From NCBI GenBank assembly GCA_019054805.1, contig JAHQIY010000002.1, positions 1,364,001 to 1,428,000 of the forward strand: a stretch of 64,000 bases of DNA, read 5' to 3'. Position numbers and translations under genes: made by a program. The notes under the pieces are model-generated. The model had not been told where the DNA came from. It did no database searches and worked only from the letters and a program-made list of their open reading frames with translations. Below are positions 16,086 to 57,511 of the stretch, in pieces. The stretch is from Brachionus manjavacas (lineage: Eukaryota > Rotifera > Eurotatoria > Ploima > Brachionidae). Positions within the stretch are counted from its first letter, which is position 1, and the number at the start of each line of letters is the position of its first letter.

Positions 16086-16205
16086 CTCCTTTTAGATTTT
16101 GTTTGAAAAAAAATTATTTTACTACAACTTTTTTATCGAAATAAAAAATATTATATTTTTAAGAATATCTTTTTTGAATCAAGTTTCAGCGAAAATTCTT
16201 ACTTT

Positions 16206-17068: not shown

Positions 17069-17190
17069 TCTTTTACCTTAAAAATTTTTTTCTTGTCGTT
17101 AGTATTTTAATTTTAGATTTTTTTGATATAATTATTATTCCAATATTTTATTTTAATCTTTTTATCTTGATGTTTAAGATTATTTTTAAA

Positions 17191-31981: not shown

Positions 31982-32618
31982 ATGAATTTATATACAAATC
32001 ATGAATTAAGAAAAATAGTGAGAGAAAAACTACAAAAAGGAGAACAAAAGAGGAAACGTTTGCGAGTTTTTGTTCAGATTGCATTGCTTATCAGAAAAGT
32101 TCACAAAAAAACAACGGAAAGATTCAAGAATGAAAGAATCAATTATGTATTCGATAGGGAACTTGCAATTGTTCAGCTAAGAAAATTTGATCACACATTA
32201 CCGGCAGATTTTATCTATTTGATTCGAAAATTCAGCATAGGTCTAGAAGAGATTGGCACAGGATCAATTTTTTATAATAAATATGAAAAAATGATCAAAG
32301 AAAATGATAATAATATGAAAAATGTTGAAAGCGAATTATATGAATTCACGGTGGCCTTAAAGTACTTGTGTCGTAACAGTAGCAGTGATTTATTAGCCTT
32401 TTTGAGTTTATTTGAAATACTTGAATTGATAAATATATCAAAGAGTGGCCTAATAAGTAACCAACTTGTTCGTATACTTGGTTACATGATCGAGAAATCA
32501 AACCAAAGAATCGCTAATGATTTAACTTCTGGTATTTATCAACTTGTACATGAAAAATCAAATTTGATTGACGGATCATCCAAAGAGTTTTTATTCAGTT
32601 TGATAAAATCTAATAAAT
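31982..32618 (+). CDS. Exon 1 of the SecA-like gene (helical N-terminus)
   Basis: The ATG at 31982 opens 212 codons of charged, leucine-rich helical sequence (for example ELYEFTVALKYLCRNSSSD). The frame ends at an ideal donor (GTAAGT at 32619) in phase 1. The first acceptor downstream with an open matching frame is at 36719, also phase 1, which would read on without interruption. If that junction is wrong, this exon belongs to a separate gene with a similar helical character. Confidence 0.65.
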
Positions 32619-35600
32619 GTAAGTAAAAGTAACACAAATATTAAGTTGGCGCATCAATTATTGTTATCAATAAAATTTCTGAAAACCTTGAATATCTCCG
32701 TGACTATTAGTCCAGGCTATGTTTTTTAATTTTTTCATTTCTAAAGCTATCTTTTCAAACATAAATTTTTTTTTCGTTAATTTCGAAATTCCAAAAAACT
32801 CAACAATTTTTTTAATTCATGATTCTGTGCGGTGTTAAATTTTGTTTCAAAATATCAAAAATAGGTTTAAAATTTATGGCAACTGTGCAAATTTAATTGC
32901 ACTTTAATTCAAATAACTTTGATTTTTTTATTTGATTGCGCAATAAAATTTGCACAAGTTTTGAAAATTTTTGAAAAGTTTTCGGAGATTCAAAACGTCC
33001 TCACTATCTTAAAATCAAATTTTTGTGGGATCCAAAAATAAAAAATTTAGAACTCAAGGGGTCTGAGGAAACATGACCACAGAAAAAACATACTTAATTA
33101 TTTTAATTGCACTTTAATTCAAATAACTTTGATTTTTTTATTTGATTGCGCAATAAAATTTGCACAAGTTTTGAAAATTTTTGAAAAGTTTTCGGAGATT
33201 CAAAACGTCCTCACTATCTTAAAATCAAATTTTTGTCTGAGGAAACATGACCACAGAAAAAACATACTTAATTATTTTAACCCTAGTTATCTAAGTAACC
33301 CAGGAACCATAAATACATTATAAAAATTCTGAAAGAGCGTAAAATTTTTTTAACAAATTTTTCGAGGTCATTTCCAAAAGAAAAGGACTGATGAAATAAA
33401 TGATTGAACCCAATAGAACTAATAAATGACATCTTAAAAAAAAAGTTTAAGTAGCTTAATTTTTAAGAGTCTTTCAAGAAAAAAACAAAATAAAAAAATA
33501 AATTGTTAAAAATTTATCTAAAACGATTGTTTTGATTAATGTTTAGAGTTTTGCGAGTTTTTTTGCCCTGAGTTAAGACTAACTCTTATTCTCAATAAAA
33601 TTTATATCTGTAAAGTCAAATATACAGATATAAATTATATCTGTATATTTGACTTTATTATTTATCAGACCCCTTGAACATTATCATTTAACTTTTTTTA
33701 TTTATTTGTTTTATCTGTGCCGAGTTTAAGCTCCTTCAGATTAAAAAAAAATAAAAAAAAATAAAAATGTTAAAAAAAAATATATAAGAAAAATTAAAAT
33801 AAATTAAAATATAATAAAAAGACAATTAAAAAAGCCGATTCGAGACAGTGAGAAATTTTAGTTTATTAAAGGCTTCATGATGCAAAATATTGCGAACTGC
33901 TGTGTACTTAAACTAAGACTTGAATTTTTTTAATGTTTGTCTCCGAAAATGAATTTAGACACGGGAAAGAGTAATCAATTATTGATCCGATTAAAGATTT
34001 ATATAGGTTTCCTAGTGTGCAATAATTAAGATCCCATTTTTTTTTTGACAATATTTTTATTAAATACAACCGTGAACTACAACGCTGTTTTATTTCATCA
34101 ACCATTGGGGTAAAGGTTAATTTTGAATCAAATTTTAAACCTAAAAACTTTGTTTCCTTTTGACTCTCAATTTTATTTTCATTTCAAGTCAATATTTTCC
34201 TTATTATATTTAGTGAAGATAATGAAGCAAGACTTTTCAACAGATATTTTGCATCTTCCACTTGAAGAGCCATTTTTTCGTTCGTCTAACTATTTGTTTT
34301 ATTTCTTTTAGGAATATCATTGATAAAAATACTAAAAAGTAATGAACTAATTACCGAGCCTTGAGGAACACCTGCAGTAATATGGTATTCATCACTTATG
34401 TGACCATTTACATTTAATTTAAATTATCTTGAGTCTTAAAATGAATTGATCCAATGTATTAGGGAAGGGCCATTTCTATTAGTTTATAAATAAGACCATC
34501 ATGCCAAACCCTATCGAACGCTTTGGAGATATAAAAAAATAGGGAACAAACTTTCTTCTTTCTATTAAATGATTCTAAAATTTTTTGAATAAGGAAGAAG
34601 AGATTATCAGCGGTTTGTCGATTTTTTCCAAAATCTGATTGCTCCTGAATTAGTAACAAGTTTTGTTCTAAATAACTATATAATCTTGAGTAGACGATAC
34701 GTTATAAAAGTTTTCCTAATCAGCTTGTCATACTGATTGGTTGGGAGTTAGCTGGGTCTTGTGTTAAAATTGACTTTTTAGATATCATAGTAATGTTAGC
34801 AGACTTCCATGCATTCGGTATTTTACTTTCTCTTAGACTTAAACTAAAAAGATACATAATGCCTTTTAGAATATTTGAAGTACATTTTTTAACATAAGTT
34901 TATAAATTTGATCTCTTTAGTGCTAACAGGCTAGTCAAATTTGCATTGATTTTTCTTATTAAAAAACTCAAGATTATAATCAATTATTTCTCTATCTTTT
35001 TGGGGATTAATTAGATCATTATTCAGACTAAAAGTTTTTTGAAGAAATTCACCAAAAAAGGTAGCCTTTTCTTCATCAGTTCTAAGTTCATTATTATTAG
35101 AGATTAAAGAAGGTATTAATCCAGATCCTTTCTTTGATCGAAACTTTTTAATTTTTTTTCCAGAATTCTCTACTTAAAAGCTGATTTTTCCGAATTTAAT
35201 AATAAAAACAGTTTTGATTCCAAAAATTTTTTAAACTGATTCTTAACTCTGAAGTTATTTGGTTGAATATTTTTTAGTATTTTGACAACGAGTTTTTGAA
35301 ATATCCTTCTTATTTTCCTGCGTTTCTATATAATACTGACAATGTTCGGTGAAGACTTGTTTTGAAAATTCCATTTGTTTGGTATGGAATGCTTTTATAA
35401 GTTGCAGAAATTAATTTTTGGGTAATTTCTTCATTTAGTTTGTCAATTGATGCTGAATTTAATCCTGAGTTTTGACCTTTTAGGATCTCACGGAATAAAA
35501 ACCAATTTGGTTTTCAAGTTAGAGCTTCTTTGGTTGTGTTTTATGGAACTGAGTAGTCAAAATGTATGCATGCCTCAATTGGGAAATGATCACTGGTCAC

Positions 35601-38600
35601 ATCTTGATTGTTTAGAACCCTAAAATCAGTGATTTTATCAACCAATGAAGATGAGACTAGAATAAATCAAGAATTTCAAAATATTCCCTATTGAATATGT
35701 AAAAGGATGCACACTTATTATTGTGAGATTACTGTGAGATTAAGCTCGTTTATAATGCTTTCCAAAATGATTCCATTTTCGTTTTCTCCTTCGCATCCTA
35801 TTTGTATGTTTTGGCGTTTAAGTCACCCCCGAGAACATAATTTTTACAATTCCCATTTATCTTTTCGAATATTTTTAAATTTAGAAGTTTATTAGGTGGA
35901 TTACATAAACTGAAAATGTATAATTTATCTTTTCCTGGATTTATTTTGATACAAAGTAATTCAGAACTTGTAATTCAGAACTAAACAGAGGAGAAACCGT
36001 TTAATGTTTATTTACTGTTTCATAATCTATTTTTCACAAGAGTTGTCAAAAACCATCATTAAACCAACAAATAAGCAATTTTCTGGGGCTTATTTGCCAT
36101 GTCGAACTTAAAGGGAGAATTTAACTCCTTAATATTAAGGCACATGCCCTTAATTAAATAAGGTTACTTCTTCTTGGTCCAAAATTCGTTTAAATAACAA
36201 ATAAATTGATAAAATTGGCTATAGCTGAGAATCGAGTCGGTTTTTGTTAGTATGGTTACCATCTTAAACACATCATGTTTTTTTCTGTAAAAAATTATAA
36301 AATATGTTTATGAAATGAGGTAAAACTCCAAAAATTTGAAAAATGATTTGTGCGCTGATTAGTATACTGTTAAAAACTGAATTAACTGTTTCTTAAATTT
36401 AAACTAAGCGAAAACGTTAATTCACCGTAATAATTCGTCATAATTCGTCATAATTCGTTTTTAACAGGTAAACGGCTCGTGTTATTTAGAAAATGCACCA
36501 CTAAACTTAGACTTAGAAAATACACAACTGCTTAGACTCGTAATCTAGGTTAGGGTTTCTTAGTCAGAAATTTTTAGGGCATAAAAGTCAATTATTGCTG
36601 ATTTCGTTTTTCAAGTTTAGTTTTATCGCTAACAAAGTAAACTAATTTTTAATCGCTTATTTATCGCCAAAAGGCATTAATTTGAAATAAATAAACAATT
36701 CAATTTTTAATATCCAAAGCCGGAAGTCGAGATTATCTTCTTGATGATGAAGATGATAAAGAATTTGAGCGTAAACCTTACAATTCGATCATTGTCAAAA
36801 ATCAAAACAATCAGAACAAGAAAGCCAATAAGCAAGTTGTTACAAAAACAATACAAACAGTAAAATCAATGGTAAAAAATAGAATTTCAGAAGAAACTGA
36901 TAACAAAATTCTCAATTTGGCAAGTGCGCTCAAGAATAGAATTAGAAAGAAAAACATGAAAGTGACTCAGGAATCTATTGAAACAGATAAAAACGAAATA
37001 GGTGATAACAGATCAATATGGCGCAATACATGGGCTGAATGTCTAAATCTCTATCAGTCGGCTAAACAAGGTCAACCGGTAAAGAGCGATGACAAGGACA
37101 ACTATTTACCGAATAAGTTATTTGGTTACCATTTTCAAGTAGGAGGGCATCCTTTTTTCTTCAGTTTTTTTATTCAACGAATGATAGTATCAACACTGCT
37201 TAGGGTGTCAAAGAAACAAACCTTAAGCAAGTTAGCCATTCAAAAGCTCTCAATTTGTATTGATAGCTTGACCAATATTATAAAAGGACATTTAGGATAT
37301 CCTGATTTAAAAACCATGAATGATAAGTGGATTATTATTGTTAGAAGAAATTATTATAATTTAGAGGCATCGAAAGAGCCTGATATTCTAAACAATTTAG
37401 TAGTTAAGATGATTGATAAAATGATGAAGGAGGAAAAAAGCTGGATAATTGGAACTTACAAAGTAGAGAAAGAATATTACAGTCGAAGTGAAGTAGCGAC
37501 TCTGATTCGAAAAGAAGTAGAACAGTTGAGAATCGATGCAGTTAATGCATTGTATAATTCAGCATTGCGTGATAACAATATTCTAACCAAAGATATCTTG
37601 AAAAAGATAGAAGAAGTCCTAAATGACAACTATGACGAATATAGCCAAGAATTCGATACAAATGATACAGAGCGATTCAAAAATTTTCTATTTAAAATGT
37701 TGGCTCTGGTTGAATTAAATGCTGATCTTGACTATAAAGGTTTATTTCGAACTTTTTTTAAGCTTATTAAGGAATCGCAAACATGCAGCTATCAGAACAT
37801 GAAATCAGCAGTTAATTTTCTTCTATATCAATCGAAAGATCGTCAAAGATCGGAAGAACTATTTACAGATTCAAACATACACGATCTAATAGAAATGTTA
37901 AATAGAACTAACCTAAATCAAGATATCAAGTCATATTTAATTGAAATAATAAATAACAATTTGGAACATGACTTTAGACATGGTCTGAATGAAGAACAAC
38001 AACAAAATTTAATTCATTATGTTATTCAAGATGAGAATTCAACGAAAGAAGTGATCGATGCTGCTTTTTTGGCCATTCTACAATCAGTCGAAAAGGAACA
38101 AAGTATGCAAAATAAAATAAGAAAATATTTCCTTGTTGAGAATACGATTCTAATGGAGACTTATGCAAATCATCTAATATTTATTCTAAGTCGCATCAAG
38201 AATCATAAAAGTCTTGATAAAAAAGAGATAGAGACACTGTCAAAACATCTTGAAAATGGGTTTGTAATCGTTGATGAAGATGATTCAATGTTTAAATTTG
38301 AGAAGTTCTCGAATACACAGCTCAATTATCAATCAGTATCATATCTTGCCTGTCGACTTATTCTAGTCTCAATTGAGAACAAAAATGAGCATTTATCAAG
38401 TGACACTGCTGAGAATCTACTCTTGTCAATTGAGAGAAGTGTCGATAAGCAAACAAAAATCATATCGGCTAAATGTATCTATAGATTAGCCGATTATTTT
38501 TCATTTGATAAGGTAAATTTGAATACCCTAAAAAACAATGTTAGTCATGAAGTCTATGACGTTGGAGTTTACTTACACACAGCATATGTAAAATGTCTAG

Positions 38601-41600
38601 CGAAACTTTCACGAGAAAATACTCTACAAATTGAGTCGCATCATTTAGAAATTCTTAGCTCGCTTCATATTAAAGAGAGCTTAAAACTAGGCGAGCATGA
38701 TTTTACAATGGAAATAAACAATAGCATATTGCAAATACTCAAATATGAAGCTAAAAAACAGAAATTCATTGATGAGAATTTATTCAATCTATTTGATGAT
38801 ATCTTATACACGAGCGAGAGCAATGCATTTGAAGCTTTGGACATACTCGAGAATTACACATTGAAAAAATATACTATCCCCGCAAGTACAGTAACTGCAC
38901 TGGAGGACACACTAATGAGTCGAAAAGACTTATACGATAAAGCTTTATTAATACTGCAATGTGTAATTCAGAACGGTCAAGCGGTTCATGTCCCGATACT
39001 ACATATTTTTACGGATAATCTTTACAATTCAAATAATTCAAGTCGTCGTTTTAGAGCATTTAAATTACTCGAACAGGCTAGACTTAATCAAGAACTACCC
39101 GATGAAATATTTTTCAAGCTTGAGCTTGAAAAAGTTGCGTTTGGTCTATGTAGAGTTAAAGACACAAAACCGCTGCTCGATTTCCTAAAAACCAAAACTG
39201 ATATCGGTTATCTTCTCCCTATTGATACAATGATTGCATTGGAAAACAACCTAGACGATCAGAATGTTCTTGAAATCTTATTAAACGTAACTAGGCTAAA
39301 ACAAACACTTAGCTATGAACTACTCAATAAACTAACAGATATGTTCGATCTAGGAAATTCCAATCATGTTAATCAATTAATGCTTGGTTTATTCTCAAAT
39401 ATATCACAAAATTATCAGCGACTTACACCGAAACTACTCGATAAACTAGAATCGGCTCTCGATAACAACCTAGTGAAAGACAAATGTCTGTCGATATTTG
39501 TTTATAGAGCACAAAAAGGTGAAGAGTTAACTGGTAATATAATTGTAAAGTTATTAGATAGTATAGATGCTGAAACGAATCTAATGATCAAACAAGAGTA
39601 TTTAAGTTCACTTGGATCATTGATTCTAAACAACTCTAGTTTAATTGTAGATTCAGTGAAACAAAATGTGGAAAGAATTTTATCCAAGTATATAGAAGCA
39701 AAAAATGCTAACACTCAAAATATATGTATAAATGGTTGGCGATCACTATTAAAAAAATTTAAAGTAGATATTAAATATTTGGAACAACTTATTCAGATAG
39801 CAACAAATCCTAAATGTGATGAATCAGTTAAGAAAAATCTTAAACTCTTATTCGACTCGTTAATTCTCTCTCAGAATTGTCTAACGGAAAATTTGAAGGC
39901 GAAGATTGAATTGGACAATTTAGAATACAATTCAAACGAGGATCGATTGGATAAGATATGTGTCTACATGAATAATGAAAATAATCTACTAGAGCAAAAC
40001 TATGACCAGTTGGCAATTTTAATTGACGAAGGATCTTTTAATCTAAAACAAAAGACATTAAACTTACTCAATTCATACAAATATAAAGACGAAATAAGCG
40101 AAAATCTAATCGAAAGTATTGTGTTCTTGCATGAGAGCACTAGATCAACTGAAACTAAATCACTGTGCAGTAATCTATTAAGTAAGCTAAAAAAGCATTC
40201 AATTAAAGCGTCAATGATTCTTCAGCGGGAGAATAGTCAAAAAAATAAACCCACACTCTACTCAAACACTAAAATTTATAATCTATTTAAAAATAGATTC
40301 AAAATGGATGATACTAAAATACGTGAATTATTCAAACAGCTTAATGTGGACACACAACTATTGAACACGAATGACATCAATTCATTTTTATCCATTTGCC
40401 TCAAAAACATTCAAGATTATTACGATAACCCCGCATTCATATTTCTTATAGAACAAGTTATTCTAGATGGCAAGCATTCAATAGAAGCCCTGATTTGTTA
40501 TAATCGAATAATCGAGGAGAAAAAATATCAGAATTTAGAAGGATGTCTTGAAAAACTAATTCAATCAGAAATAAGTGGTAGAGTTGAGCTGCTTGGATTA
40601 GTCATTGAATGTATATTTATTTCAGTTGAGAAAATAAGAGTACCATTTGATTGTCTTAAGTTATTGGAGAGTCACATGGAGCATAAGAATGAGTTTATTC
40701 GAAGTTGTTCATTTAGAGCGCTGAGAGTAGCGGTTGACAAATACGATGATTATTCGTCTGATACGTTTAACAACTGGTGTGATAGGAAAATAGCCGAATT
40801 ATCTAAATTAATCAACGTCAATCTCACACCGACTAAAAAATATTTAGATTTATTGGAATTGATAAGCTCATTAAGTAGCATTGATTTTGAAGTGTTTAAG
40901 ACTCAGTCTCAAAAAGTTTGGAAACAAGAGCTCTTAATATCATGTCTATTTAAGCAATTGCAACCGGAAAATACGGAAAAAATGCTCTTTTACACTATCT
41001 GGTTTGAAATAAAAAATAAATTCAAATACATACATAGTATAAAAATACTCCAACATTTACATGATAGAATTTCAATATTTCGGTCAATGAGAGAATTTAA
41101 CGAGACAGTTACGATTATAAAGAAGTTAGATTTAGACACCGTTTTAAACAAACTTCGACGAGATTTAGATCCATTTCAGAGTCTACGCATCGAATGGTGC
41201 GTTAGCAATATAATGAATATTCTTACAAATAAAGAGGAAATATGCAACTCGTATATTGAGACTTTAGCCCAACGAATGCTCTTATTATTGGATTTAAAAC
41301 TAGTCGAGCAAATATTTCAATCAATTATAGCTATAGACAATCTAAAAGCATTTGAATCGTTGATTGACTTCTGCTATATTGAGAACGTAAAAGTCAATGA
41401 TGTTAGGTTCGAGAATGTCGAAAAAGTGCGTGATTTACAGAGTCTAATCGAAGTTAAACATATATGCAATAACATTCAATCATCATCTAATGATAAATCA
41501 AATACTAATTGGGATTTATTTAGTCTATTATTTAATTTAATGAAAAAAAATTGGACCTATGATCAAATAATGAAGCTAATTGACGCTTTGAAATGTCGTT

Positions 41601-44600
41601 TAAGCCAAAGGCGACCCGAAAAAGATGCAATTGATGCTCTTAAAGTAATTGATTATTTCAAACTATCGTCTATGAAATATGATGATTGTCTGAAACTTAT
41701 CGATAATTCAAAGCATATGACAGATCTATTGCAGAATTTAAATCAACTGGCTGTTGAGAATAGTTTTCAAGAAAAAGGTAAAATAAAAGATGCGGCACAA
41801 TTGCTTGCTGAACTTGAAATGCTTAATTCAAATAATGGAGAATTGCTCGAATACATTCGAAATAACTTGCCCAAACAACTGAAAAATATAAAATCAAAAT
41901 TATTTAAATCGTCTGTTGTTAATCACGATGTACCAATATGTGAATGGAGTGAAAAGTATATAACAAAATGGGCAAATGAAATAGTTTCATTAAATATGAA
42001 TAAGTATCTTGAGGAAGGTGTGGCTGTTATAAAACGGGCTAATTTTATATTCACTAAATACGAGCTAACCGATGCACAGATTCTATGTAGTCTTATTTCG
42101 TTGAAGAATTTCGACCCGGGACTAGAAGAGTTATCAACTTGTAGAGGGAAGTTATTAGAAGTGGCTACTGGTGAAGGTAAATCTACTATTGTATGCATAT
42201 TGGCCATTATAAATGCTTTGAGGACTAAGAATTCTCAAGTGAATATAATTACAAGTTCATCTGTATTAGCCGAACGCGATGCTCAAGATAAAACTAAGCT
42301 ATTTAAAATGTTCAATCTAAAGTGTTCTCACAACAATGATGCCGCTGTATATATAAAAGGTAATTTTATACAATAAAGATTATTTGTGTGTGTTATGATT
42401 ATGAAAATGTCTGGCGGTAATCCCTAAGATCCGGACATGTGTTGATTTTTTAGAAATTTATAGATTCCGGACACGGAATATTTATCTAAAGACTAAAAAA
42501 TAAATTTAATATTAGATGCAAAAAAAAGAACTTGTTACTATCTTTAATTGCAGATGAGTTTTTTTAATATTAGAGACGAGAACAATAATGTTGTTATGGT
42601 TAAACTGTATCCAAATCCAAACTGTTCTTGCTATGAGAAAAAAAGATTTTTGTCTCATGATTGCGGTAAAATTTAGTATTGTCTTAGAATAGACTATAAG
42701 AAAAAATAATCAAAAAAGTGTCAGGATGTAAAGAGATAATTTCGATGATGAGGAAATCATTCAGGTTTAGTACATTTAGTACCTAAGGGTTTTCTCATAA
42801 TGTTTAAAATATTTATTTTTCTTCTTTACCGACACTGATTGTTTTTCGATTGAAGAGAGTTTTTCGAGTTGGGTGCGTGTTTAAGATGCTAAATAAAATA
42901 AATTTCGTTTTTTTTTAAATTTTAATTTTTGTTCAATTTTTTTGTCTGTGTCCGTATTTTAGGAGATTTTTGCCATTTAATTTTCAAATGAAAAATTTTG
43001 GGTAGAAAATATCCTTGAGTTTATGGATATATGCTTATTTACAATAATCAATAACTAAACTTCATTATAAGCAATAAACAAAATTCGAAGATTCTCCTAT
43101 GGCCAGGTTGGGTGGTCATTGACTCCCTTCGGCCTCCCGTGTCAGAATTTCTAAAATATTACCTCATGGATAGTCAATTCATTTTCTCATTGTTAAACAA
43201 ATTATATGCTTTATTAAAAGTTTCTGAACAAGAATACCTCTGGATACTAGGTATGCTAGTCAAATAAGAACTTTAGAAACACACCCAAATGCATTTTCGT
43301 TTTTTCAATTAAATTGTAGATATAAAATGCACATCCAAAGTGTATTATATGCTTTTGTTTAATTGTAACTGAAGAGAGAAATTCATTCAATGGAGATGAA
43401 AGACCAGTGTGTTTTTTGCAATGTCAGTCACTATTGAGATCATCTTGTCTATTTGATATCCCAAATTTGCATCAACTGGTATCAAAATATCTCTTAAAAT
43501 TTCGGTTGTATGCTTTTCATCAGCAAATTTTACTGAAATTGTCTTGTAATGTAATTTTAAATTTTCATTTAGAAAATGAAATATTACCCCTATGTATGAA
43601 TACTTATGAGTAGACTTCAAGAAATCTAATGATAAGCTTAAAAAACCAGCTTTTTCCATTTCAGTCTTAATGTTAACGATCGTCTGATTATATTTATAAT
43701 TAAGGAGTCTTTTTGATAAGGTGTGTCGACTAGGGATATTATAACACGGAAACAAAACTCTAAATATCTTATCTTGTTTTCTCTCTTTCCTCCTACGCTT
43801 GATTACTTTAGTTTCATCGTCCTCAAAAAAATGCATTTCATCATCAAAAACTTCTTGTTTTCTTGTAAAGTTGATGTCATGTGTTACCTTAAAAAACTTA
43901 CATGTATTAAAGTAAGAACTTATTTTGCTTGTAATTCTTCAAGGTTCAAAAGAGTGCTATAAATCACATATAGTCTATGGTGAAGTATCACAATTTCAAT
44001 TCGATCATTTAAGAGATAACTACAGTCAGTTAGGTACACTTGCTGGAAGAGAATGCAAAGTAGCTATAATAGATGAAGTAGATGCAATGTTGATTGATGA
44101 CAGTTCAAAGATCTCGCGTCTATCATCAACAGCCGCTGGCTTAGACCATTTTCATTCCATTTACATTTATATTTGGCAAAAGTTACTTTTAATAAAAGAT
44201 AAATTCATTTTGCTCAATGGTCGAATGTATATGCTTAATGGTAAAGTATTTTTTGAATCAAATGGTCAAATTAGACTTGAATTTATCGACGAACAAGGCG
44301 AGATCAAAATAATAAACGATTTAGAGGCATATATTAACGAAAATTCAAACATAAGTACTATAGGTCAGAGAATAAATGGAGATATTGATGAGTTTTAAAA
44401 AAAAACCTTGAACGATTACGTTGAAAACTTAATTGAAAACCGAATTGTTCAAATACCAGATAATTTTCAAAAGTTTTTCAATAGGCAACTACCAAAGTGG
44501 ATTCAAAACGCCATAGAAGCTATGAATTATCAACAAAATGTACACTATGTTGTTCAAGAAGGTCAAATTAAACCAGTTGATTATTTCAGCACTGGAATAG

Positions 44601-47600
44601 TACAAAGCGCAACAAATTGGAGCGATGGTCTACATCAGTTTCTTCAACTTAAACACAATCTCAGAATGACATGTGAAACATTTACAACCAATTTTCTCTC
44701 CAATATTGGTTTCATAAATGCATATGATAAAGTATATGGTCTAACGGGTACATTAGGTAGTGTAAAGGCTCGAAGTGTATTAAAAAAAGTCTACAAAGTG
44801 GATCTAATAAACGTGTCTCAATTGCGTCAAAAGCAATACATTGAATATCCAACCATAGTTGCCGAAAATGAAACCAAATGGATTCAGATTATTTGCTCTT
44901 CAGCCCTAGTCGAAACAAAAAAAAATAGAGGCATTTTGATTATATGTGAAACAATCGAACAAGCCAATCAGATAGGTCAACTTTTAAAAGAAAAATATAT
45001 TCCAAGTGCAGTTAAATTGTATACAATGAATAATATGGACCAAGAGAAACAAGTTGAAAAAGTCGTACCAGGTGAAATTATAATAGCAACTAACTTAGCC
45101 GGACGCGGCACGAATATTCAAGCAGATGCCGTTGAGCATACGGGTGGTTTACATGTAATACTTATATTCATGCCCAATAATCAACGGGTTGAGGATCAAG
45201 CATTTGGTCGAACAGCCAGACAAGGCAAACGTGGCACCGGACAAATGATTCTAAATCTAATGAATCTAATTGGATTTAGAAATGTAAATCACAATGAGGT
45301 CAAACATGAACGTGATCTAATAGAGTCAAAGCAGTTGATTGAATTTCAAGACAACGAGCTGAGACTAATAAATGCCAAAGATAAGCTGTTCAGAAAGTTT
45401 AGCAAATTTCTAAATGAAGAAATACGCGCTGACATTAGGGAAAAAAGTGGTCTATGGCAAAAAACTAAATCAGTCTTTACGTTTATTAAACCATCTGTCT
45501 ATGAACAAAATGTTCTGGCGGCCATTGAAGAACAATGGGCCATGTTCTTGCACGGCTTCGATGATGGAGCAATTTCTATTGAAAAATCAATGTCAGAGTA
45601 TGATTCACTTGAAAAACGATTACGCCAAGACTATAAACTTAATAAAGTAATAAAGAATCAGTTTTATCACACTGTAATTGGCAATCACTTGATAGCAAAC
45701 GAATCAAATGCGAAAAAAGCATTAGAACATTTTCAAAGTGCTACAGTTGATTCCAATTTTAGCGGTTCGGCTTTCGTAGGAATTTGCTGGTCCACTTTAT
45801 CAATTGGAACGAATGTAGTTAAGCGGGATCTACTCGATAATTACCACAAGGCACTTAATATCTTAGCCAGCGAAATGGGTCGATTAAACGCAAACCAAAT
45901 ACTACTTCAAAAGATTCAAACAGGTTTCGTGAACAGTGATTTGGATAGACAACTAAGCACTAAGACATCCATACTTGGATCATACTTAAACAGTGTTCAA
46001 AGTTGTTACGATGTTATCAAAAAATCAATGAGACTTTTCGATGTAGTTAAAAATGATTCTAGTTCACTTGACTACTACTATGATTTAGAAAGAGATAATT
46101 TAAGAAAAGATACCATAGCATGTGTGGATACTGCTACATATCAGTTAACATTTAATAATCTAACAGCAAGAGAAGATTCATGGACAGTTGATCAAGCATG
46201 TCAAAATATACATGTTGCATTGAGAGAAATAGAGAACAAGGATAATATGGTAACTGGCTACATGAATAAATTGAAATCACGTTTTATCTACAATAATTGT
46301 AAAAGTAGTAAAAAAAAAAATGAACATTTAACCTATGAGGATATAGGACTTAAAGTTAGTCAAATTACCCTATCCAGATTAAAGTCTCTTCTAAGTAAAA
46401 ACGTCGAATTGGATGAACTAAATGGTGCTTTAGCCATCACAAAGCTTAAAGAAACAAGAAGCTATATGAATGCATTCGGTTTAACAAACACATATTATGT
46501 AGATGTTAGAATAGTTCATATGGATAATACAAAAAAAACTCTGGAAAATATGCCAATAAATGAACTTATCGCGCTTATTGAAACAAACAAAGATAAACAA
46601 CTAACATATTATTTAAAAATAAGAGAGGCTAATGAGAATGAGATAAATATCTCTTATCTTAGTGAAACATCCGGATCTAATTTTGATATACAATTTGATG
46701 GTCTCGATCACACGGAGGCATCCAAATTACAGCGGGATTTAACTGCTGAATATGTCAACATTGAATTTAGAGTTAAAAAAAGTCAACTTCTTCCAATTGC
46801 AAAGTCAAATCTATTCAATGATAAGAATATTTTTAACAGAATTATATGTACCGTTGATAATAAGACGTACTCTATTGTAGACAATAAAAAACTAATGTCG
46901 ATCATAGAAGAAAAAGAATCAAATGAGCCATTTTACCTAAAAATTGAATGTGCACAAATTTTTTCAATTACTCTGTTAAACAAATTTCCACAGAGTACAT
47001 TTAATATAACATTTAACACAGTAAGCTATTTAAATCTAATGCAATATTTAGATAAGGAAGAGCTAGAAGAAAAACAAATTAAATTTAGCTTTGAGAATCT
47101 TAATAAATCAAATGCGGAAGGTTACATTAAAGTGTTACGTCAACAACACATTGAGTTTAGTCTTGAATTTAAGAATCTAAATCACAAACAATTAAATGCA
47201 ATAATAGCTAAAGCTCATTTAGAACAAGAAGAGATACAGATAAGCAGTGTTAAGAATCTGGCTGAGTTATTTATGAAATCAGCCATACCACAATTCGAAT
47301 TGAATGAATTTTCTGCCAAATGTATCGAATATCTTATTGAAATAAATGAAAAAATGTTCGTGCCATGGTTCAGTGTGGCTATTGTTGCTTGCATAGGTCT
47401 TATTCAAACAGTAATCGGTGGCTTTTTGATCGCATCTGGATTTGGAGCGACTTTAGGCATGAGTTTAGTATCAGAGGGTTTAGCTGATCTTTTTTATGCA
47501 TATCGAGCTTATAGTAGTCGACAATTTAGTTGGGGCGATTATGCTACACAAAAAGCAGTTAGCATTGCAATTTCGGGAGTCACTGCTGGTTTTGGTAACC

Positions 47601-50600
47601 TAAAAGATGCTGGTAAGGCAGCTACTACGCTAACGTCTAAGGCCGGCAAAGAAATAGCTGAGGAAGGAGCAAAAACAGTTTTAACAAATGGTAAAACAGT
47701 GGCTCAACAAGTCACGACCGCTGGAAAAAATCTTAAAAGTCTCGCATTTAAATATGTGGGTGCTAAAACGGGAGAGGCGGTTGTGCGTGAGAGTCTCAAT
47801 AACGGTGTACAACTATTAACGACATTGTCATTCGATTTGATCAAGTCGCAAATATGCGAAAACATGCAAGAAAGATTAAATGCTAGATTTTGCTTAGATA
47901 GTCTAAATAGACTCTTGCGTAAAATGTATGCACTTGATGTATTGGCCAAGTCAAAAACATTACAAGGCAGAGTGGAGAAAATTGTTTGCGAAATTATGAA
48001 TCCGGAAAGAAGCACGATGAACAAGCTATGGGACTCTATTGGTGTTCCATTACTAAAAGGTTACTTTTATTACATATCACTAAAAGGAACTTAACCTTCA
48101 AAAAAATTTTATTTAATTTTCTTATTTTGCATGATTAATTAAGTCCTGAAAACGGATTTTTCATTGATATCATCTGTCATCAGTTGATATCAACTGGTAT
48201 CATATGATGTCGACTGACATTAGTTGCTATGAGCAGCCGTTGTCCGTTTTTATTAGTGTTGGACGCGGACAGAGCTAACCGGTCCAGAAACGGGCGGTTC
48301 ATCGCGGTTGTTGACCCGTTTAATAAACGTTTAAAAATAAACGGGCGGTCCAAGAAACCGTTCCAATTTTGGCGGGCGGACTCTGGCCCGTTTATTTTGG
48401 CGGGCTAAATTTTGACCCGTTTAATAAACGTTTAAAAATAAACGGGCGGTCCAAGAAACCGTTCCAATTTTGGCGGGCGGACTCTGGCCCGTTTATTATG
48501 GCGGGCTAAATTTTGAACCGTTTAATAAACGTTTAAAAATAAACGGGCGGTCCAAGAAACCGTTCAAATTTTGGCGGGCGGACTCTGGCCCGTTTATTTT
48601 GGCGGGCTAAATTTTGACCCGTTTAATAAACGTTTAAAAATAAACGGGCGGTCCAAGAAACCGTTCCAATTTTGGCGGGCGGACTCTGGCCCGTTTATTT
48701 TGGCGGGCTAATTTTTGGCCCGTTTAATAACCGTTTAAAAATAAACGGGCGGTCCATGAAACCGTTCCAATTTTGGCGGACGGACTCTGGCCCGTTTATT
48801 TTGGCGGGCTAATTTTTGGCCCGTTTAATAACCGTTTAAAAATAAACGGGCGGTCAAAAAACCGGCCAGATTTTTGGCGAGCGTTAATTTTGCCGGTCAA
48901 CTTGGCGGTCTTAATTTTGACAAAAAACAGGAAATAAATAAAAAATTAAGCTATCTTAATATATTTATTTTTTAAAAAAAGTTATTTTTTAATTAGAAAA
49001 AAAAAATAAAAAATCTACGAAAAAAAAATTTTATTTAAAAATTAATAAAAAATAAAAATCTTATTTAAAAAAAAAAAAAAAAAATAAAAATTTTATTTAA
49101 AAAATAAAAAATATTTTTAAACGGTTATTAAACGGGCCAAAAATTAGCCCGCCAAAATAAACGGGCCAGAGTCCGCCCGCCAAAATTGGAACGGTTTCTT
49201 GGACCGCCCGTTTATTTTTAAACGTTTATTAAACGGTTCAAAATTTAGCCCGCCAAAATAAACGGGCCAGAGTCCGCCCGCCAAAATTGGAACGGTTAAT
49301 ACGGTCACGGTCACGGTTTTTAAAATTTTTGGCCCGTTTACTGTCCGCTTGCACGGACACCAACACTAGTTTTTATCCAAATTTTAATATAATCTGATAT
49401 CATTTGAATTTAACTGTAATTTTTTTGAGCCAAAGGGCCTTTGACTAAACTTTTGCGATGCTCATAATTATTGATGCTCATTAAAAGGTATTTTGTCCGA
49501 TGAGAAATATTTTGGCAATTCGTTTAGCATGGGTCTTAGAATTCTCGGCACATTGCATGGTTTGTATGAAATTCAGGCAATCATTGACAAAGTCTACACA
49601 GATCTTGTTAACAAACTAACACAAATCGATCGTGATACTCTTACTTTAACTCAAATACTTCACGAACATTTGAAATTGGACAAAGAGACTTCACGTCAGG
49701 TGACCAACGAATTGAAATTGCACGACATCGATGAATATTCTCTATTGAATCTAAATAATCTAGATATGATTTACATTAGCACAAGTGATAACGAACGCCA
49801 ATGTGAAATAATAAAACGTATAGAAAAATTTCAAAAAAAAACCGATAATGGTAAAGTGTCTCTATTTCTTAAAAATTACTGCGATGAAAATGCTCGAATT
49901 AATTTGGAAGCATTTAGCGTTGTCATAAAGTCAATATCAGATAAAATAACTAATCAAGTAATAAGCATTATACAGTCACAAATGATTACGCCATGGTCAA
50001 CGTTAGCCGTTAGTGGTGTAACAGATGCTTTATCTAAACGAATTCAGCACTATTGTCTGGTTAACAGTAGTCAAAATGCTGATGCACAAAATGAAGAAGA
50101 GAAATTGTATAATGATTTAAAAAGGAAGAAAGAGAATAGCCAGAAACTAACTGATGCCGAAAAACAATTTCTCGACGGTTATGAGCCATTTAACACATTT
50201 ACCAAACAAATAAACGAAAATGCCAAACAGTATATAATGAACTTTACGAGAAGTGAAGCCGCCTATTATGCGAAAAAGCAAAAAAATAGTGAAGAAGTGA
50301 GCGATAAAGTTAAAGAACGTGCAGATGAAGTTGAGAAAGGCAAAAAACCAGCTAGTTTGGCAGAGATAAGTCTAATGATAGAAAAAATGAAAGAAGAATT
50401 TGGCATAAATGTGAAAGTAGTAGACGATCCGAACTATCAGAGATCACAAGAAGACATTGATTCAGGCGTGGAGATTGTCTATATTAAGAGAGGTGTCAAG
50501 GATGAAAATGGTGTGGATGGCATTGGGCATGCTCAGTTTATAGATAAGGTTGGCCATCGGGTTGATATAAAAGCAGATCCAAATGATTGCGTTTATGGAG

Positions 50601-52100
50601 TGTTTAGTAAAATTTTGGAAAAGAATGGAATCGACAAACCTATAGATAAGCTAAGAAGTGAGATTGCTAAGAATATTAGAACTAATGCAAACTATGAAAA
50701 GGTCATTGAAGCGGAGAAATACATGCATGAGAGATATCCGCATGAGGCTAATTCAGTAATAGAATCTATTTATTTTCTCATTTATTCGAGTATTTTTTTT
50801 GAAAAAAGTGTATTTTTAATTATAGGTTTTATTCACTGCTGGATTAATAAATAATAACGGTACTCTGGAAGTTGAAGACAAGGATTTAGATAAAATTGAT
50901 GAATCATTAGATAAAGGAGATAAACGTGGAAAGCCATATGATGATTTTTTTCAAGTAAATATATAAACTCTTTGATCCCTTCTAAGTGGGAAACTTAAAT
51001 TGTATGAACATATTTTTTACGACCTCTTAGAATATCCAAATTTATCACTTTGCTACTTTCAGGAAAGTCCCAAGACATAAAAATAAAAATCATGAAGTGA
51101 ATCATGAAGTTTAAGATACGGGCTATGTAAGAGCACAAAATTTAATATGTCTTGGGACTTCCTGAAAGTAGATTCAAAAAAATAAAAATGTATCTAAAAC
51201 TTCATTTTTAAATTCTTAGATTACCATTAACTATTTAATTAAGTCAGCTCCAATAAATATCTTAAACTTAAGATTCCTTTGTACAAAAATAGAATTTTCA
51301 TATAAAGGGGACAAAATTATGGAGTCAGATTTTGTATTGAAGATGCAATTAAAATCGGACATCATTTGCTTGACTCCATAATTTTGTACCTTATTCAGGT
51401 ACATGGGACTCAGATCCTTTTGAGCCCATGTCACTAGGGAGTTCTAACGAGAATGAAAAATATCACGAAAAGAGTAACCAAATTAACAAGAACTGTCTGA
51501 ATAATACTTAAATAGCTTTTAAAGAATTCAAAAAAACTTTTTGGTTTTGTTTTTTTTTTAAAGGCGCAAGTACCAAAAGGAACTTCAACACCTGAATTGA
51601 TAACTGATAACGGAGAAAAAGACGATCAAAGATATACATTCCATCATATAACACCTAACCATATCCTGATCGAAATGTTGAAAAAAACAAAAGATCTTCC
51701 AAAAGAAGAAAGAAAAAAAATTCTAAATGATTATTTAAATATGGAACATATAAAAAAAGTTATTATTGAAAATAATTTAATCGAAAGAGAGATTTATGGT
51801 ATAAGGAACCATGGTAGATTGATACAATCAGCAGTTACAAATAATCCAAATAATTTGGTATATGGTCCTGGCTTTAATGAAAAAGGTAAAACATTACGAG
51901 GTAAGGAACCAAAAGAAAAAAAAGATGAAGAAAATGCCAAAAAGCAAACAGCTGATCATCAGAATAAAACTTCAATTTTTGAACAAGAAAAAACTTTAAA
52001 AGCATTTGGTGATATACCGGCTACTATTCCAGTTAATTATAAATTGCATGAAGGTAAAACAAATAAAGACAAAACGTTTAATAAATATTATGCCGAATAG
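31982..52100 (+). CDS. Giant SecA-like ATPase protein, six exons (about 4,108 codons)
   Basis: Exons: 31982-32618, 36720-42359, 43944-48059, 49488-50755, 50826-50954, 51564-52100. Junction phases 1,1,1,0,0 all agree and all introns are GT-AG. Order of parts: helical N-terminal region (residues about 1-1990), SecA-type motor (about 2000-2560: Walker A GEGKST at 2030, DEVD at 2136, motif V ATNLAGRGTN at 2474, then FGRTARQGKRG), helical repeats, a hydrophobic Gly-rich segment (about 3230-3300), an OTU-like Cys motif (C3832) and a terminal HHITPNH motif (about 3957). Bacterial SecA drives protein export and is roughly 800-900 residues; this one lacks an obvious zinc-binding C-terminus and is far larger. 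A TAA at codon 2244 interrupts the frame. Introns make bacterial contamination unlikely. Cellular role unknown. Joining of exon 1 is the least certain step. Confidence 0.8.
32891..33281. repeat. Tandem duplication of about 210 bp in intron 1 of the SecA-like gene
   Basis: The segment beginning AATTGCACTTTAATTCAAAT occurs at about 32895 and again at about 33105, in direct order. The second copy lacks about 33 bp after TCAAATTTTTGT. Confidence 0.85.
33611..33657. repeat. Perfect palindrome, 23-bp arms with a 1-base loop
   Basis: TAAAGTCAAATATACAGATA and the next three bases of the left arm are exactly complementary to the right arm ending in TGACTTTA. Intronic. Confidence 0.9.
33680..35980 (-). 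mobile_element. LINE family B, copy 2, in intron 1 of the SecA-like gene
   Basis: The minus-strand 3' tail at about 33690 (CTGAAGGAGC, then AAATAAATAA) matches copy 1. 34105-33908 holds the C-terminal linker (LYLIKILSKKKWDLNYCTLG). 34659-34459 holds reverse transcriptase (EQSDFGKNRQTADNLFFLIQ, then AFDRVWHDGLIYKL). About 35900-35380 matches the endonuclease half of copy 1. Stops and shifts throughout. 5'-truncated near 35980. Confidence 0.82.
36720..42359 (+). CDS. Exon 2 of the SecA-like gene (helical scaffold and Walker A)
   Basis: Uninterrupted for 5.6 kb. The reading frame is already open before the ATG at 36869, with clearly protein-like acidic sequence (DYLLDDEDDKEFERKPYN), so the true exon starts at about 36720 behind an AG. 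About 1,750 residues are alpha-helical, with repeated Leu/Asn/Lys patterns of HEAT/armadillo appearance and no transmembrane segment. The 3' end encodes the first SecA motif (RGKLLEVATGEGKSTIVCIL) and SSVLAERDAQDK. The donor at 42360 interrupts the motor between Walker A and the DEAD-equivalent box. Confidence 0.88.
42542..42680 (+). pseudogene. Possible SWIM-finger remnant of a transposase in intron 2
   Basis: A short open stretch reads RDENNNVVMVKLYPNPNCSC, then YEKKRFLSHDCG, resembling the end of a SWIM zinc finger as found in many rotifer-type transposases. Too short for a firm call. Confidence 0.25.
43387..43860 (-). pseudogene. hAT transposase fragment in intron 2 of the SecA-like gene
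   Basis: Minus-strand open stretch of about 150 codons with hAT features: PSRHTLSKRLLNYKYN, a LSLDFLKSTHKYSYIGVI block in place of the usual D-x-W region, and ISIVTDIAKNTL near the second catalytic Asp. N-terminal BED finger and C-terminal dimerisation domain are missing. No terminal repeats found, so it is a relic. It lies within the 1,584-nt intron 42360-43943, antisense to the host gene. Confidence 0.65.
43944..48059 (+). CDS. Exon 3 of the SecA-like gene (rest of motor, helical repeats, hydrophobic segment)
   Basis: Begins with the conserved SecA segment HIVYGEVSQFQFDHLRDNY and the Walker B box AIIDEVDAMLIDD. After the in-frame TAA (44396-44398) the same frame continues with SATNWSDGLHQFLQLKHNLR, YGLTGTLGS, NLAGRGTNIQADAVEHTGGL and FGRTARQGKRGTG, matching the order of SecA motifs. 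The region corresponding to the preprotein cross-linking domain is short. Then come about 600 residues of helical, TPR-like character, and a hydrophobic Gly/Ala-rich segment (VAIVACIGLIQTVIGGFLIA, then GFGATLGMSLVSEGLADLFY) that could insert into or associate with membranes. Confidence 0.88.
44396..44398 (+). other. In-frame TAA inside the SecA-like motor
   Basis: The frames on both sides are the same, so this is a nonsense substitution, not an indel. It lies in TTTTAAAAAAAAACC at a T/A homopolymer boundary, where one T-to-A miscall would turn a Lys codon into TAA. Coding is strong for 450 nt before and 3.6 kb after. Options are a sequencing error, a recent null allele, or readthrough. Confidence 0.85.
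48254..49368. mobile_element. hAT-type foldback element in intron 3 of the SecA-like gene
   Basis: The ends are TAGTGTTGG and CCAACACTA. An 8-bp direct repeat GTTTTTAT flanks them exactly (48246-48253 and 49369-49376), as in hAT elements. The left side holds about five tandem copies of a unit of about 120 bp rich in GGCGGG and CCCGTTTA; the right side (49110-49330) holds roughly two copies in inverse orientation, with an A/T loop between, so transcripts could fold into a long hairpin. No transposase inside. Its high G+C stands out sharply from the surroundings. Confidence 0.93.
49488..50954 (+). CDS. Exons 4 and 5 of the SecA-like gene (OTU-like region)
   Basis: Exon 4 (49488-50755) joins exon 3 in phase 1 (Gly codon split) and exon 5 (50826-50954) in phase 0 across a 70-nt intron. 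Helical sequence leads to SLAEISLMIEKMKEEFGINV, then a beta-rich part ending in DIKADPNDCVYGVFSKILEK and DKLRSEIAKNI. The D-x-N-D-C pattern followed by a helix and an LR motif resembles the active-site Cys region of OTU-family proteases. A matching catalytic His is not obvious, so activity is not claimed. Exon 5 is acidic (EVEDKDLDKIDESLDKGD). Confidence 0.8.
51053..51171. mobile_element. MITE-like inverted-repeat element in intron 5 of the SecA-like gene
   Basis: Ends are inverted repeats of about 26 bp starting CTACTTTCAGGAA, differing by one base. The 119-bp unit lacks coding capacity. No clear target duplication. Confidence 0.65.
51311..51387. mobile_element. Second short MITE-like element in intron 5
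   Basis: Inverted ends ACAAAATTATGGAGTCA (51311-51327) and its reverse complement (51371-51387) enclose about 43 bp. Confidence 0.5.
51564..52100 (+). CDS. Exon 6 of the SecA-like gene (His-motif C-terminus)
   Basis: Phase 0 after acceptor AG at 51562-51563; stop TAG at 52098-52100. Encodes 178 residues. Near its start is QRYTFHHITPNHILIE, a cluster of histidines with Asn resembling the HNH/LHH-type nuclease modules found at the C-termini of bacterial polymorphic toxins. This is motif resemblance only: a full metal-binding set has not been demonstrated. The remainder is Lys/Glu-rich and ends in a low-complexity polar tail. Confidence 0.75.
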   Translation, partial: AQVPKGTSTPELITDNGEKDDQRYTFHHITPNHILIEMLKKTKDLPKEERKKILNDYLNMEHIKKVIIENNLIEREIYGIRNHGRLIQSAVTNNPNNLVYGPGFNEKGKTLRGKEPKEKKDEENAKKQTADHQNKTSIFEQEKTLKAFGDIPATIPVNYKLHEGKTNKDKTFNKYYAE

Positions 52101-52344
52101 GTAATCCCGTGAAAAAAGTTTGTTTAGTTTTGCAAAAAAACATTTTATTGTTGTTTAAAATTTATTTATGAATTAATAGTTATGAATAAGTTTTTAAATA
52201 AAATTTAATACGAAGACTTAAAATAAATCTAGTTTTTTTTCTGTTTAACTATTTGGTGTTAAAATCAAATGCAACCGATTGTTTATGTTGATTGAATTTC
52301 AAAATTGATATATAAATTATTTAAATTGTTTAGATATTATAAAA

Positions 52345-53082
52345 ATGTCATTAAAAGACAAGTTTCAAAAAGGTAATAATTTACTACAGAGTACGCCGCT
52401 TATTCTTGAAATAACCGGCTACGAAGGTATATTTATAAACAAGAATCTTCCATATCCGAGTGATGTCGACTCATTTGAGAATGCAAATTGGAAAAGAGAT
52501 AGATTACGCATAGATAAACTAAAAGTAATAAACGAAGGTGATTGGGAACTAAAAATTTCAATGATAAATATATTTAATTTTGAAAATAGAGATAAACTTG
52601 ACGAAATGTTACTTGCAAACACACGACTTGCTCATCCTAAAAAGGAACCTCGCCAGAAAATAAAGCGAATTTCAATTCAAAAGGCATTAGATTATATTCA
52701 CGCTAAGCTATGGATAAACATGGAATTTTACATGAAGAATAGGAACGAGCTTGAAGCAGATCTATTGCGTAAAGTTTCCGATTTTGAGTTAAAGGATGAA
52801 CATATTCGCAAACGAATAGAACAAGAGCTATTTTATAAAGAAATGCTAAAGTTATTTGGTTCAGACGAGAAAGCTCTTGCTGATGACACTTTTAAACCTG
52901 AAGATGCTCATATTGTTGATGTTTCTGACGATGATGATGAAAATAAAAATCAAGTCAAAATTCCATATTCTTATGGAAAAACTTTTATACTAAATGAGTT
53001 TCACAAATATTTGGATGGAAACTATATGTATGCGTCGGCTAGAAGAGGCGATTATTATTTGCTTTTTGATTTTGGATCCTAA
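52345..53082 (+). CDS. Orphan 245-aa protein directly downstream of the SecA-like gene
   Basis: Single-exon ORF from ATG at 52345 (AAAAATGTC context), 244 bp after the SecA-like stop and on the same strand. Mixed alpha/beta composition: an N-terminal beta-like part (LILEITGYEGIFINKNLPYP), a central helical part (FEMKDEHIRKR-like charged helices at about residues 130-170), an acidic run (DVSDDDDENKNQ) and an aromatic C-terminus (ARRGDYYLLFDFGS). No signal peptide or membrane segment. No family recognised. Its position next to a toxin-like terminal exon invites comparison with immunity genes of bacterial polymorphic toxin loci, but nothing in its sequence proves this. Confidence 0.7.
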   Translation: MSLKDKFQKGNNLLQSTPLILEITGYEGIFINKNLPYPSDVDSFENANWKRDRLRIDKLKVINEGDWELKISMINIFNFENRDKLDEMLLANTRLAHPKKEPRQKIKRISIQKALDYIHAKLWINMEFYMKNRNELEADLLRKVSDFELKDEHIRKRIEQELFYKEMLKLFGSDEKALADDTFKPEDAHIVDVSDDDDENKNQVKIPYSYGKTFILNEFHKYLDGNYMYASARRGDYYLLFDFGS

Positions 53083-55759: not shown

Positions 55760-56200
55760 TTATTATTTTCCTCAGTGGTCCCATTTTATCAATTCCAACC
55801 ACTTTGAATGGGGCAATTGCTCTTACTGGCTCTAACAAACCATTAGTTATTGACTGAGGAGGTTTGAGCTTCTGACAGGTTAAGCATTCCTTCACCTATT
55901 TGCTAACATCTCCATGCATTCCATTCCAGAAATATTTGTTTCTCAAATACGCAAATAATTTATCTCTGCTAAAAATTTCCCATGATAAGCTTCTAGCAGA
56001 ACCGGTACAGATGTTCCGGTATGACTTTTAAGTCATTTCCATCACCCATTCTAACAAACAATTTTTTTTCAATCACTCTGTATCTTTTACCATTTTCAAA
56101 ACATTCATTTCCAGAGTTGTTTTCTACCTTTTGCACGAATTCTTTGTAAAGATGAATCTTTCTTCTGCTTTTTTTTCAATTTGTATGGAGCTAATGCTGG
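55760..56200 (-). pseudogene. Ty3/gypsy integrase fragment
   Basis: The minus strand reads, with stops and shifts, an integrase zinc-binding (HHCC) region: LLEAYHGKF, KYFWNGMHGDVSK, then VKECLTCQKLKPPQS and the start of the catalytic core (PFKVVGIDKMGPL). Upstream polyprotein sequence continues to about 56200. The part from about 56012 is shared with copy B (from 24692). No LTRs visible. Confidence 0.65.
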
Positions 56201-57511
56201 TGTGTATTGCAAATAATGTTCCATTATCAAATTTTTCGAGTATTAAAGTATTAAAGCTGAGTTGCTGTGATCAATTTTCAAACTTAGAAATTATTTTTAT
56301 TAAATTGAAGTCCAATGAGTATAATTATCTCAAAATTTTCTATTTTCATTTCTTATTTTAAAATTATAAATAATGCTAAGAGTTATTTTAGAAAAGATGA
56401 GAATTTTTTACTTTTGTGAAATTTTTCAGCTTTTGAAGATTAATGAAATAGTTCCGAAATTATTTGTAGAAATTTTTTCAAAAGAATTTTTGACTATTGA
56501 TACTGATAACAAAAAAAAATTAGAATTATTTTTAGTTTTTTATTAAGTAAATAAATAAAGAAAATGTATGGAGCTTCCAACACAACACAGAATAGGACAA
56601 GGTACCCCCGCATGACCTCATTAGTAAATCAAAGAAGAAATTGAGTTTATCAAAGTTTAACCAAATTTAAAAAATTTAGTTCATTTGTTTTATGAGATAT
56701 GTTTTGGATTCTTCTTTTTGAAAATAGTTCATTTGGGGAGAAGTGAATTCTTTTCTTTTTTTCACAAAAAAAAGAAAGTTTTTGTTTGAAAAAGTAATTC
56801 AATCACTGATTTTGTGATGATTTAAAAAAAATGTGGTGATGTTTACTGACGTCCTTCAAAAAACATAATTAACACAGAAGTTAAATAAATTATTGGATTT
56901 TTTCTAACTTTTTTTATTTAGCAAAAAATCGTGAGGACTTTTTAGATCTCTAAGGTTAATTTCAGGACAATCGCTGTTTTTTTTTTTCATTTATTAAAAT
57001 ATCCTATTTAAAAAATCTATTTTAATTTTTGGTATTTTCACGTAGTGTTTTCAACTAAGGTTTTTGTCTGAATCTGAGGGTGGTGGCATGCGAAATCAAA
57101 ATTTATTATTTTTAATCCTTTTATTCATTTTAATATTTTATTTTATTAATTTTACAGCTAAAAAGTTAAATGATAATCTTCAATAAAAATTTATTCGAAA
57201 GAAAATTAAAAATTAAATAGCCGATAAACAAAGCATATAAATAATTTAAAAAGATATATAAAAATAAATTGAATCAGTCCTTAGTTTATTTTCCATCTTT
57301 TTTGTATTTTTAATTTTTTTGATTATTGAAGAACATCAAATTAATGATAATCATTTGATGTCATCGCTTCATTTATTTCATTGAAAAGTTCATTTTGTAT
57401 TCGTCCAAATCTTACCATTAAGATTAAATATTTAGTTAAAGCCCATCTTTTTAAACTGTCATAACTTAAGGAACAAAATCAAATAATTTTAAATTCCATT
57501 TAAACTAAATC

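Follow-up and report, generated by a model that had tools for sequence, protein, structure and literature searches.

Long secA-domain genes were reported in 2013 from an ant (Harpegnathos), mosquitoes, Daphnia, protists and the Wolbachia strains wBol1 and wHa, according to Duplouy et al. (2013, PMC3639933). Likewise, in two further sources, the SecA domains of phage WO were placed nearer to invertebrates than to bacteria (2016, PMC5062602), and SecA-like domains were described in Amoebophilus effectors (PMC3482391). In this study, we analyzed a stretch of 64,000 nucleotides from the rotifer Brachionus manjavacas (C2:1364001-1428000 of a 114-Mb, 61-contig assembly; hereafter the window), and focused on the six-exon gene at positions 31982-52100 within it. 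Over almost its full length this gene is related to a giant gene on a Candidatus Megaera plasmid; it lies on an animal chromosome, has five GT-AG introns and, as assembled, contains a stop codon within its motor. The existence of long secA-domain genes in symbionts and invertebrates was already known, and the premise of the original prediction made for this locus, that animals are not expected to have a SecA, had been out of date since the 2013 report. What is new is the full-length Rickettsiales match, the checked introns, the differing C-terminal tails and the cysteine-protease-like domain. The literature searched, outside of which lie most subscription journals, yielded, among the papers listed, no publication on SecA in rotifers and a single, apparently unrelated lake survey for SecA together with Megaira.

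A counterpart on a Rickettsiales plasmid

The six exons agree in phase, as had been predicted, and total 12,327 nt, or 4,109 codons if the terminal stop is counted. All five introns start with GT and end with AG. The predicted protein size of about 4,100 residues was right as to length (4,108 codons), but the frame is not open: a TAA at codon 2244 had been overlooked. The parts of the gene are the following.

31982..32618, + strand: exon 1, residues 1-212, with start ATG and donor GTAAGT
32619..36719, + strand: intron 1, 4.1 kb
36720..42359, + strand: exon 2, N-terminal region and first motor part (SecA_DEAD)
42360..43943, + strand: intron 2, 1.6 kb, junction gap-free against bacterial homologues
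43944..48059, + strand: exon 3, remaining SecA_DEAD, preprotein (PP)-binding, second motor half and C-terminal regions, with the in-frame stop inside
44396-44398, + strand: in-frame TAA in exon 3, between DEVD and WSDGLHQ, splitting the motor
48060..49487, + strand: intron 3, junction gap-free against bacterial homologues, carrying a 101-bp tandem array along with inverted copies
49488..50755, + strand: exon 4, containing the cysteine-protease-like domain
50312..50755, + strand: cysteine-protease-like domain
50756..50825, + strand: intron 4, 70 bp, junction gap-free against bacterial homologues
50826..50954, + strand: exon 5, tail, non-homologous beyond the first few codons
50955..51563, + strand: intron 5, between exons 5 and 6
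51564..52100, + strand: exon 6, tail with the terminal stop, for which the searches gave no homologue

The open reading frame (ORF) 44399-48091 was queried with tblastn against 72,556 plasmid records, of which 128 were matched. The best match came from Candidatus Megaera polyxenophila (Rickettsiales; Euplotes culture), with 99% query coverage and 44.5% identity, followed by Legionella geestiana (57% coverage, 27% identity); the remaining 38 of the best 40 of the 128 covered 20-26% of the query. The Megaera homologue is an intronless 5,225-residue "SecA-like domain protein" (WPX99843.1, CP113870.1). Window residues 238-3893 are colinear with its residues 380-4099 in one stretch at 38% identity, with 63% identity in the second motor half. 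Both proteins contain the same cysteine domain, and a hydrophobic glycine-rich segment (47357..47506, + strand) is common to the window gene and the Megaera and Legionella geestiana giants. On the other hand, the Megaera frame is open and free of introns, whereas the window gene has five introns and the in-frame stop. The tails differ as well: that of the Megaera protein is about 1,130 residues long and includes a RickCE_cat-like domain, while that of the window protein is another sequence of about 220 residues. Sub-threshold matches led us to suspect helical repeats in the N-terminal region of the Megaera protein.

The junctions after residues 2092, 3464 and 3887 fall within stretches that align well and without gaps to the intronless bacterial homologues. 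Those after residues 212 and 3930 rest on splice logic, because the former lies in a weak alignment and the latter in the non-homologous tail. Only the end of exon 1 (residue 149 onward) aligns, weakly, to one homologue. Exon 6 had no plasmid match, no second copy in this genome and no match in the 261 Rickettsiales-order genomes (a genome search run without a positive control), and its predicted fold was unusable (predicted local distance difference test, pLDDT, 44.6). The halves before and after the TAA share the same frame, and two homologues, one of them the Megaera giant, have a residue and no break at its position. A GT-AG intron spanning the TAA was considered and rejected, since the first AG downstream (44458-44459) would lead to the removal of a stretch that is aligned in two other SecA-like loci of this genome (C5 and C8), in Megaera and in another homologue; this rejection covers introns of the GT-AG type only.

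Matches to wnt were found on C2 at 1277133-1278306, about 86 kb before the window start, and on two other contigs, but in none of the 14 control genomes, so the locus is on an animal chromosome. Contamination was ruled out by the introns, by wnt on the same contig and by the surrounding genes, namely CybS (SDHD), zinc-finger, F-box and ABC1-kinase genes. We conclude that the window gene is derived from giant SecA-like proteins of intracellular bacteria (our working name). We do not call it a working member of them as assembled, because the TAA at 44396-44398 breaks the frame through the motor.

The predicted SecA motifs were found again and in SecA order.

42170-42187, + strand: Walker A GEGKST, exon 2
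44072-44083, + strand: Walker B DEVD, exon 3
44618-44638, + strand: WSDGLHQ, exon 3
44741-44752, + strand: LTGT, exon 3
45092-45115, + strand: NLAGRGTN, with Asp as last residue in 8 of 8 aligned bacterial giants
45206-45235, + strand: GRTARQGKRG, exon 3

They do not reflect chance, because Pfam SecA_DEAD, P-loop_SecA, SecA_PP_bind and Helicase_C all exceeded their curated cut-offs and because SecA proteins of the PDB were matched. SecA_DEAD (PF07517) scored 47.9 and 45.3 bits on either side of intron 2 (cut-off 24.6). The preprotein cross-linking domain (PF01043) reached 34.7 bits (cut-off 23.5) over positions 48-109 of its 110-position profile. ORF 44399-48091 matched 27 distinct PDB sequences, 22 of them SecA proteins at E <= 1e-13. 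The SecA families were best in the profile search, and placement in another helicase family did not occur. To speak of a complete SecA-type motor, however, had gone too far. With the ORF of exon 3, the Pfam matches at E <= 0.1 did not include the SecA scaffold/wing domain, although in a divergent protein the lack of a match is weak evidence of absence, and the Asp of GRGTD is Asn in the window copy. The NCBIfam equivalog level for SecA was not reached: the best equivalog scored 102 bits where 800-814 are required, and among SecA models of all types the highest score was 123.2 bits, with a cut-off of 862; scoring the motor as three pieces lowers these values relative to a single chain, but their sum is still far below the cut-offs. 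The window protein is a SecA-like giant and not a SecA translocase. As to what such a motor does when it has no SecY partner, a partial answer is that its nearest bacterial relatives are likewise not SecA translocases.

In the cysteine-protease-like domain, H (50528-50530), D (50564-50566) and C (50588-50590) are kept in all three sequences compared. Its best match in a structural second look was EschOTU (6w9s), a permuted OTU deubiquitinase (PMC7396840), and His precedes Cys in both. The domain may resemble a permuted OTU deubiquitinase, with ubiquitin cleavage as a putative activity.

State of the animal copy

Some features of the window copy were counted for function, namely the retention, in the second motor half, of 47 of the 50 columns invariant in eight bacterial giants, the intact splice borders, and a coding-like base composition by codon position that persists after the TAA. 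Counted against function were the TAA, the Asn for Asp in GRGTD, a departure at 3-9 of the 51-56 columns invariant in seven bacterial rows (1-6 for the left-out bacterial row), and an end branch of 0.49 in the motor tree described below, as compared to 0.17-0.18 for the sister paths. Codon-use distances did not separate host from donor.

The strongest rival to the origin that we favor below, at somewhat short of even chances, is that the gene came from a symbiont by transfer and is now a pseudogene in decay, without a role in the animal. The TAA within the frame, the changed invariant columns, the longer branch and the introns filled with repeats (those of intron 1 are degenerate reverse-oriented pieces, like long interspersed nuclear elements by eye) agree with decay, but at 38% identity to its closest named homologue the gene shows just this one lesion among 4,108 codons, and every splice border is intact. 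Less likely, though not negligible, is a working domesticated host protein, for example in the handling of ubiquitinated proteins or in symbiont control, with the stop being an assembly or allele effect. Such a protein would fit the 4,107 open codons out of the 4,108 before the terminal stop, the intact borders, the retained columns and the long open exons of C8 and C5 in the same genome. However, the assembly does contain the TAA, GRGTD no longer has its Asp, only one full copy of the giant was found in this genome and codon use is not decisive.

Distribution and direction of transfer

When a species-level genome collection was searched with a profile made from a portion of the second motor half, nine of 11 pattern matches proved to be relatives. 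Five come from Rickettsiales (Rickettsiaceae in four cases), one from Legionellaceae, two from Bacteroidota and one from a Proteobacteria metagenome-assembled genome (MAG). Within the order Rickettsiales, 26 of 261 genomes were matched at E <= 1e-45, as compared to a best value of 4.5e-38 for the canonical SecA genes of nine genomes with the same model. These 26 matches are not all giants, since their open frames range from 467 to 4,932 residues and one contains a TAA. No relatives were found among the 11 stretches of viral contigs that fit the pattern, nor among 275 stretches from a first genome scan with A2, and the 20 of 50,697 phage records that matched covered 15-26% of the query.

For the motor tree, 34 candidates were gathered, including usable ORFs from six of 12 extra Rickettsiales loci. 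Four that lacked a motif (G177b, L033, can_L037 and can_L039) were dropped, as were the near-duplicates RK_L050 and RK_L056, which left 28 sequences; a second tree of 26 also excluded the long branches C13 and RK_L065. Both trees were built without C6. The window gene grouped with the Megaera protein and another one of the Megaera type (100/100 with 28 sequences and again with 26), and the four canonical SecA rows were separate from the giants (100/100). The wider fork of the Megaera type with other Rickettsiales received 93/93 and 94/94, below the starred level. C5 and C8 paired together, elsewhere in the tree from the window gene, and forcing the three together cost 39.6 log units (approximately unbiased test, p-AU 4.3e-5, 26-sequence tree). 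A single origin of the three loci was rejected, and we therefore count at least two. The grouping was tested after the first tree had been seen, which weakens the p-AU.

Transfer of a bacterial gene into the animal is supported by wnt on the contig, by CybS, zinc-finger and F-box genes in the window and by the grouping with Rickettsiales giants. The original prediction had further held that the transferred gene became a large scaffolded ATPase; growth around SecA in the animal found no support, because the giant architecture is already present in bacteria. As a whole, the locus is probably best explained by transfer from a Megaera-like symbiont of a gene of effector origin, whose animal copy was long under selection and was then broken or mis-assembled. 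This transfer would have been independent of the other two testable SecA-like loci of the genome. In bacteria, the anatomy of the giant suggests a host-directed effector delivered into the eukaryotic cell, in which the N-terminal region would bind a target, the SecA-type ATPase would pull or unfold a polypeptide, the deubiquitinase-like cysteine protease would act on ubiquitin or on the giant itself, and the exchangeable C-terminal tail would carry the specific activity. The animal copy may have been under selection for most of its stay, with a recent break or mis-assembly at the TAA.

A bolder proposal, which we regard as rather improbable, is that the animal repeatedly acquired giant SecA-motor proteins of intracellular bacteria (with at least two independent origins for the three loci that could be tested) and uses them as machines of its own, in which an ATP-driven polypeptide motor is joined to a deubiquitinase-like protease, the window copy being expressed whole in some alleles. 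The opposite direction, from the animal into the bacterium, which has been proposed for the long secA genes of Wolbachia, is very unlikely for this locus. The 2013 article argues for that direction from gene length and a tree for the wBol1 genes (PMC3639933), but the family described here occurs in Legionellaceae and Bacteroidota MAGs besides the 26 Rickettsiales-order genomes, the window gene lies among Rickettsiales rows within the wider fork, and the introns are absent from the bacterial copies. Finally, that two or more separate genes were joined in the original prediction is hardly credible in spite of the TAA and the big introns, since a single bacterial protein covers residues 238-3893 across three junctions and the TAA, and for exons 2-4 this colinear protein refutes it.

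Surroundings and comparison with known systems

The further SecA-like loci of the genome are G000:C8:55092-74532 and G000:C5:6916002-6931276, with open exons of up to 3,551 and 1,937 residues, respectively, and 44% identity to each other over 1,271 aligned residues. G000:C13:66837-74978 holds a 2,714-residue open frame with a GTPase-like match, a sub-threshold VWA match and a SecA-like motor that has diverged too far to be placed, and C6 carries a SecA-like fragment containing a TGA. On the Megaera plasmid, a second SecA-like protein (1,589 residues, L019:16046-20815) stands directly behind the giant. Contig C21 of the rotifer assembly (1.22 Mb) is bacterial, probably a symbiont, and carries a canonical secA 50-54% identical to SecA of five genomes, one of them Legionellaceae; in a same-assembly scan no giant SecA-like gene was seen on it as a donor copy.

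Within the window, a direct repeat of about 2.54 kb (24691-27230 and 56010-58552, 99.25% identical) flanks the giant gene on both sides, and its right copy carries the ABC1-kinase match on the minus strand. A tandem array at 16203-17084 consists of 7.1 copies of a 124-bp unit (98% matches). Intron 2 carries a minus-strand ORF (43387-43938) without a Pfam match, and in intron 3 the 101-bp tandem array (48311-48864) is followed a few hundred bases on by the inverted copies (49112-49297) in a foldback-like arrangement. Directly downstream of the giant gene, on the same strand, lies an ORF of 257 residues (52309-53082). It was considered as an immunity-like partner and rejected, with no Pfam match at E <= 0.01 (one sub-threshold, 0.037); it had no plasmid match, no second genome copy and no match in the 261 Rickettsiales-order genomes (that search without a positive control). 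No Rfam families were found in the window, and PADLOC gave a single weak partial match, to DpdA (E 0.0036). A spliced-leader motif, tried as a mark of rotifer identity, had 0 matches, a result that is not decisive.

These results provide a concrete, near-full-length link between an animal-chromosome giant and a Rickettsiales plasmid gene, which bears on the published question of the direction of secA transfer. They also point to SecA-type motors outside protein export, within modular giants with differing tails, in bacteria living inside eukaryotic cells. Canonical SecA (e.g., PDB 3jv2) shares with the window gene the first motor domain, part of the preprotein cross-linking domain and the second motor domain, whereas the scaffold/wing is undetected in the latter and NCBIfam SecA models give it at most 123 bits against cut-offs of 725-1493. 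Judged by description, the giants resemble the effectors of intracellular symbionts in their variable C-terminal domains. With the genes of Duplouy et al., again compared by description, the window gene has in common a SecA domain in very long genes shared by symbionts and invertebrates; in that study there were few signs of true introns, and the transfer was inferred to have run from eukaryotes to bacteria (PMC3639933), whereas the window gene has five introns and is probably of bacterial origin.

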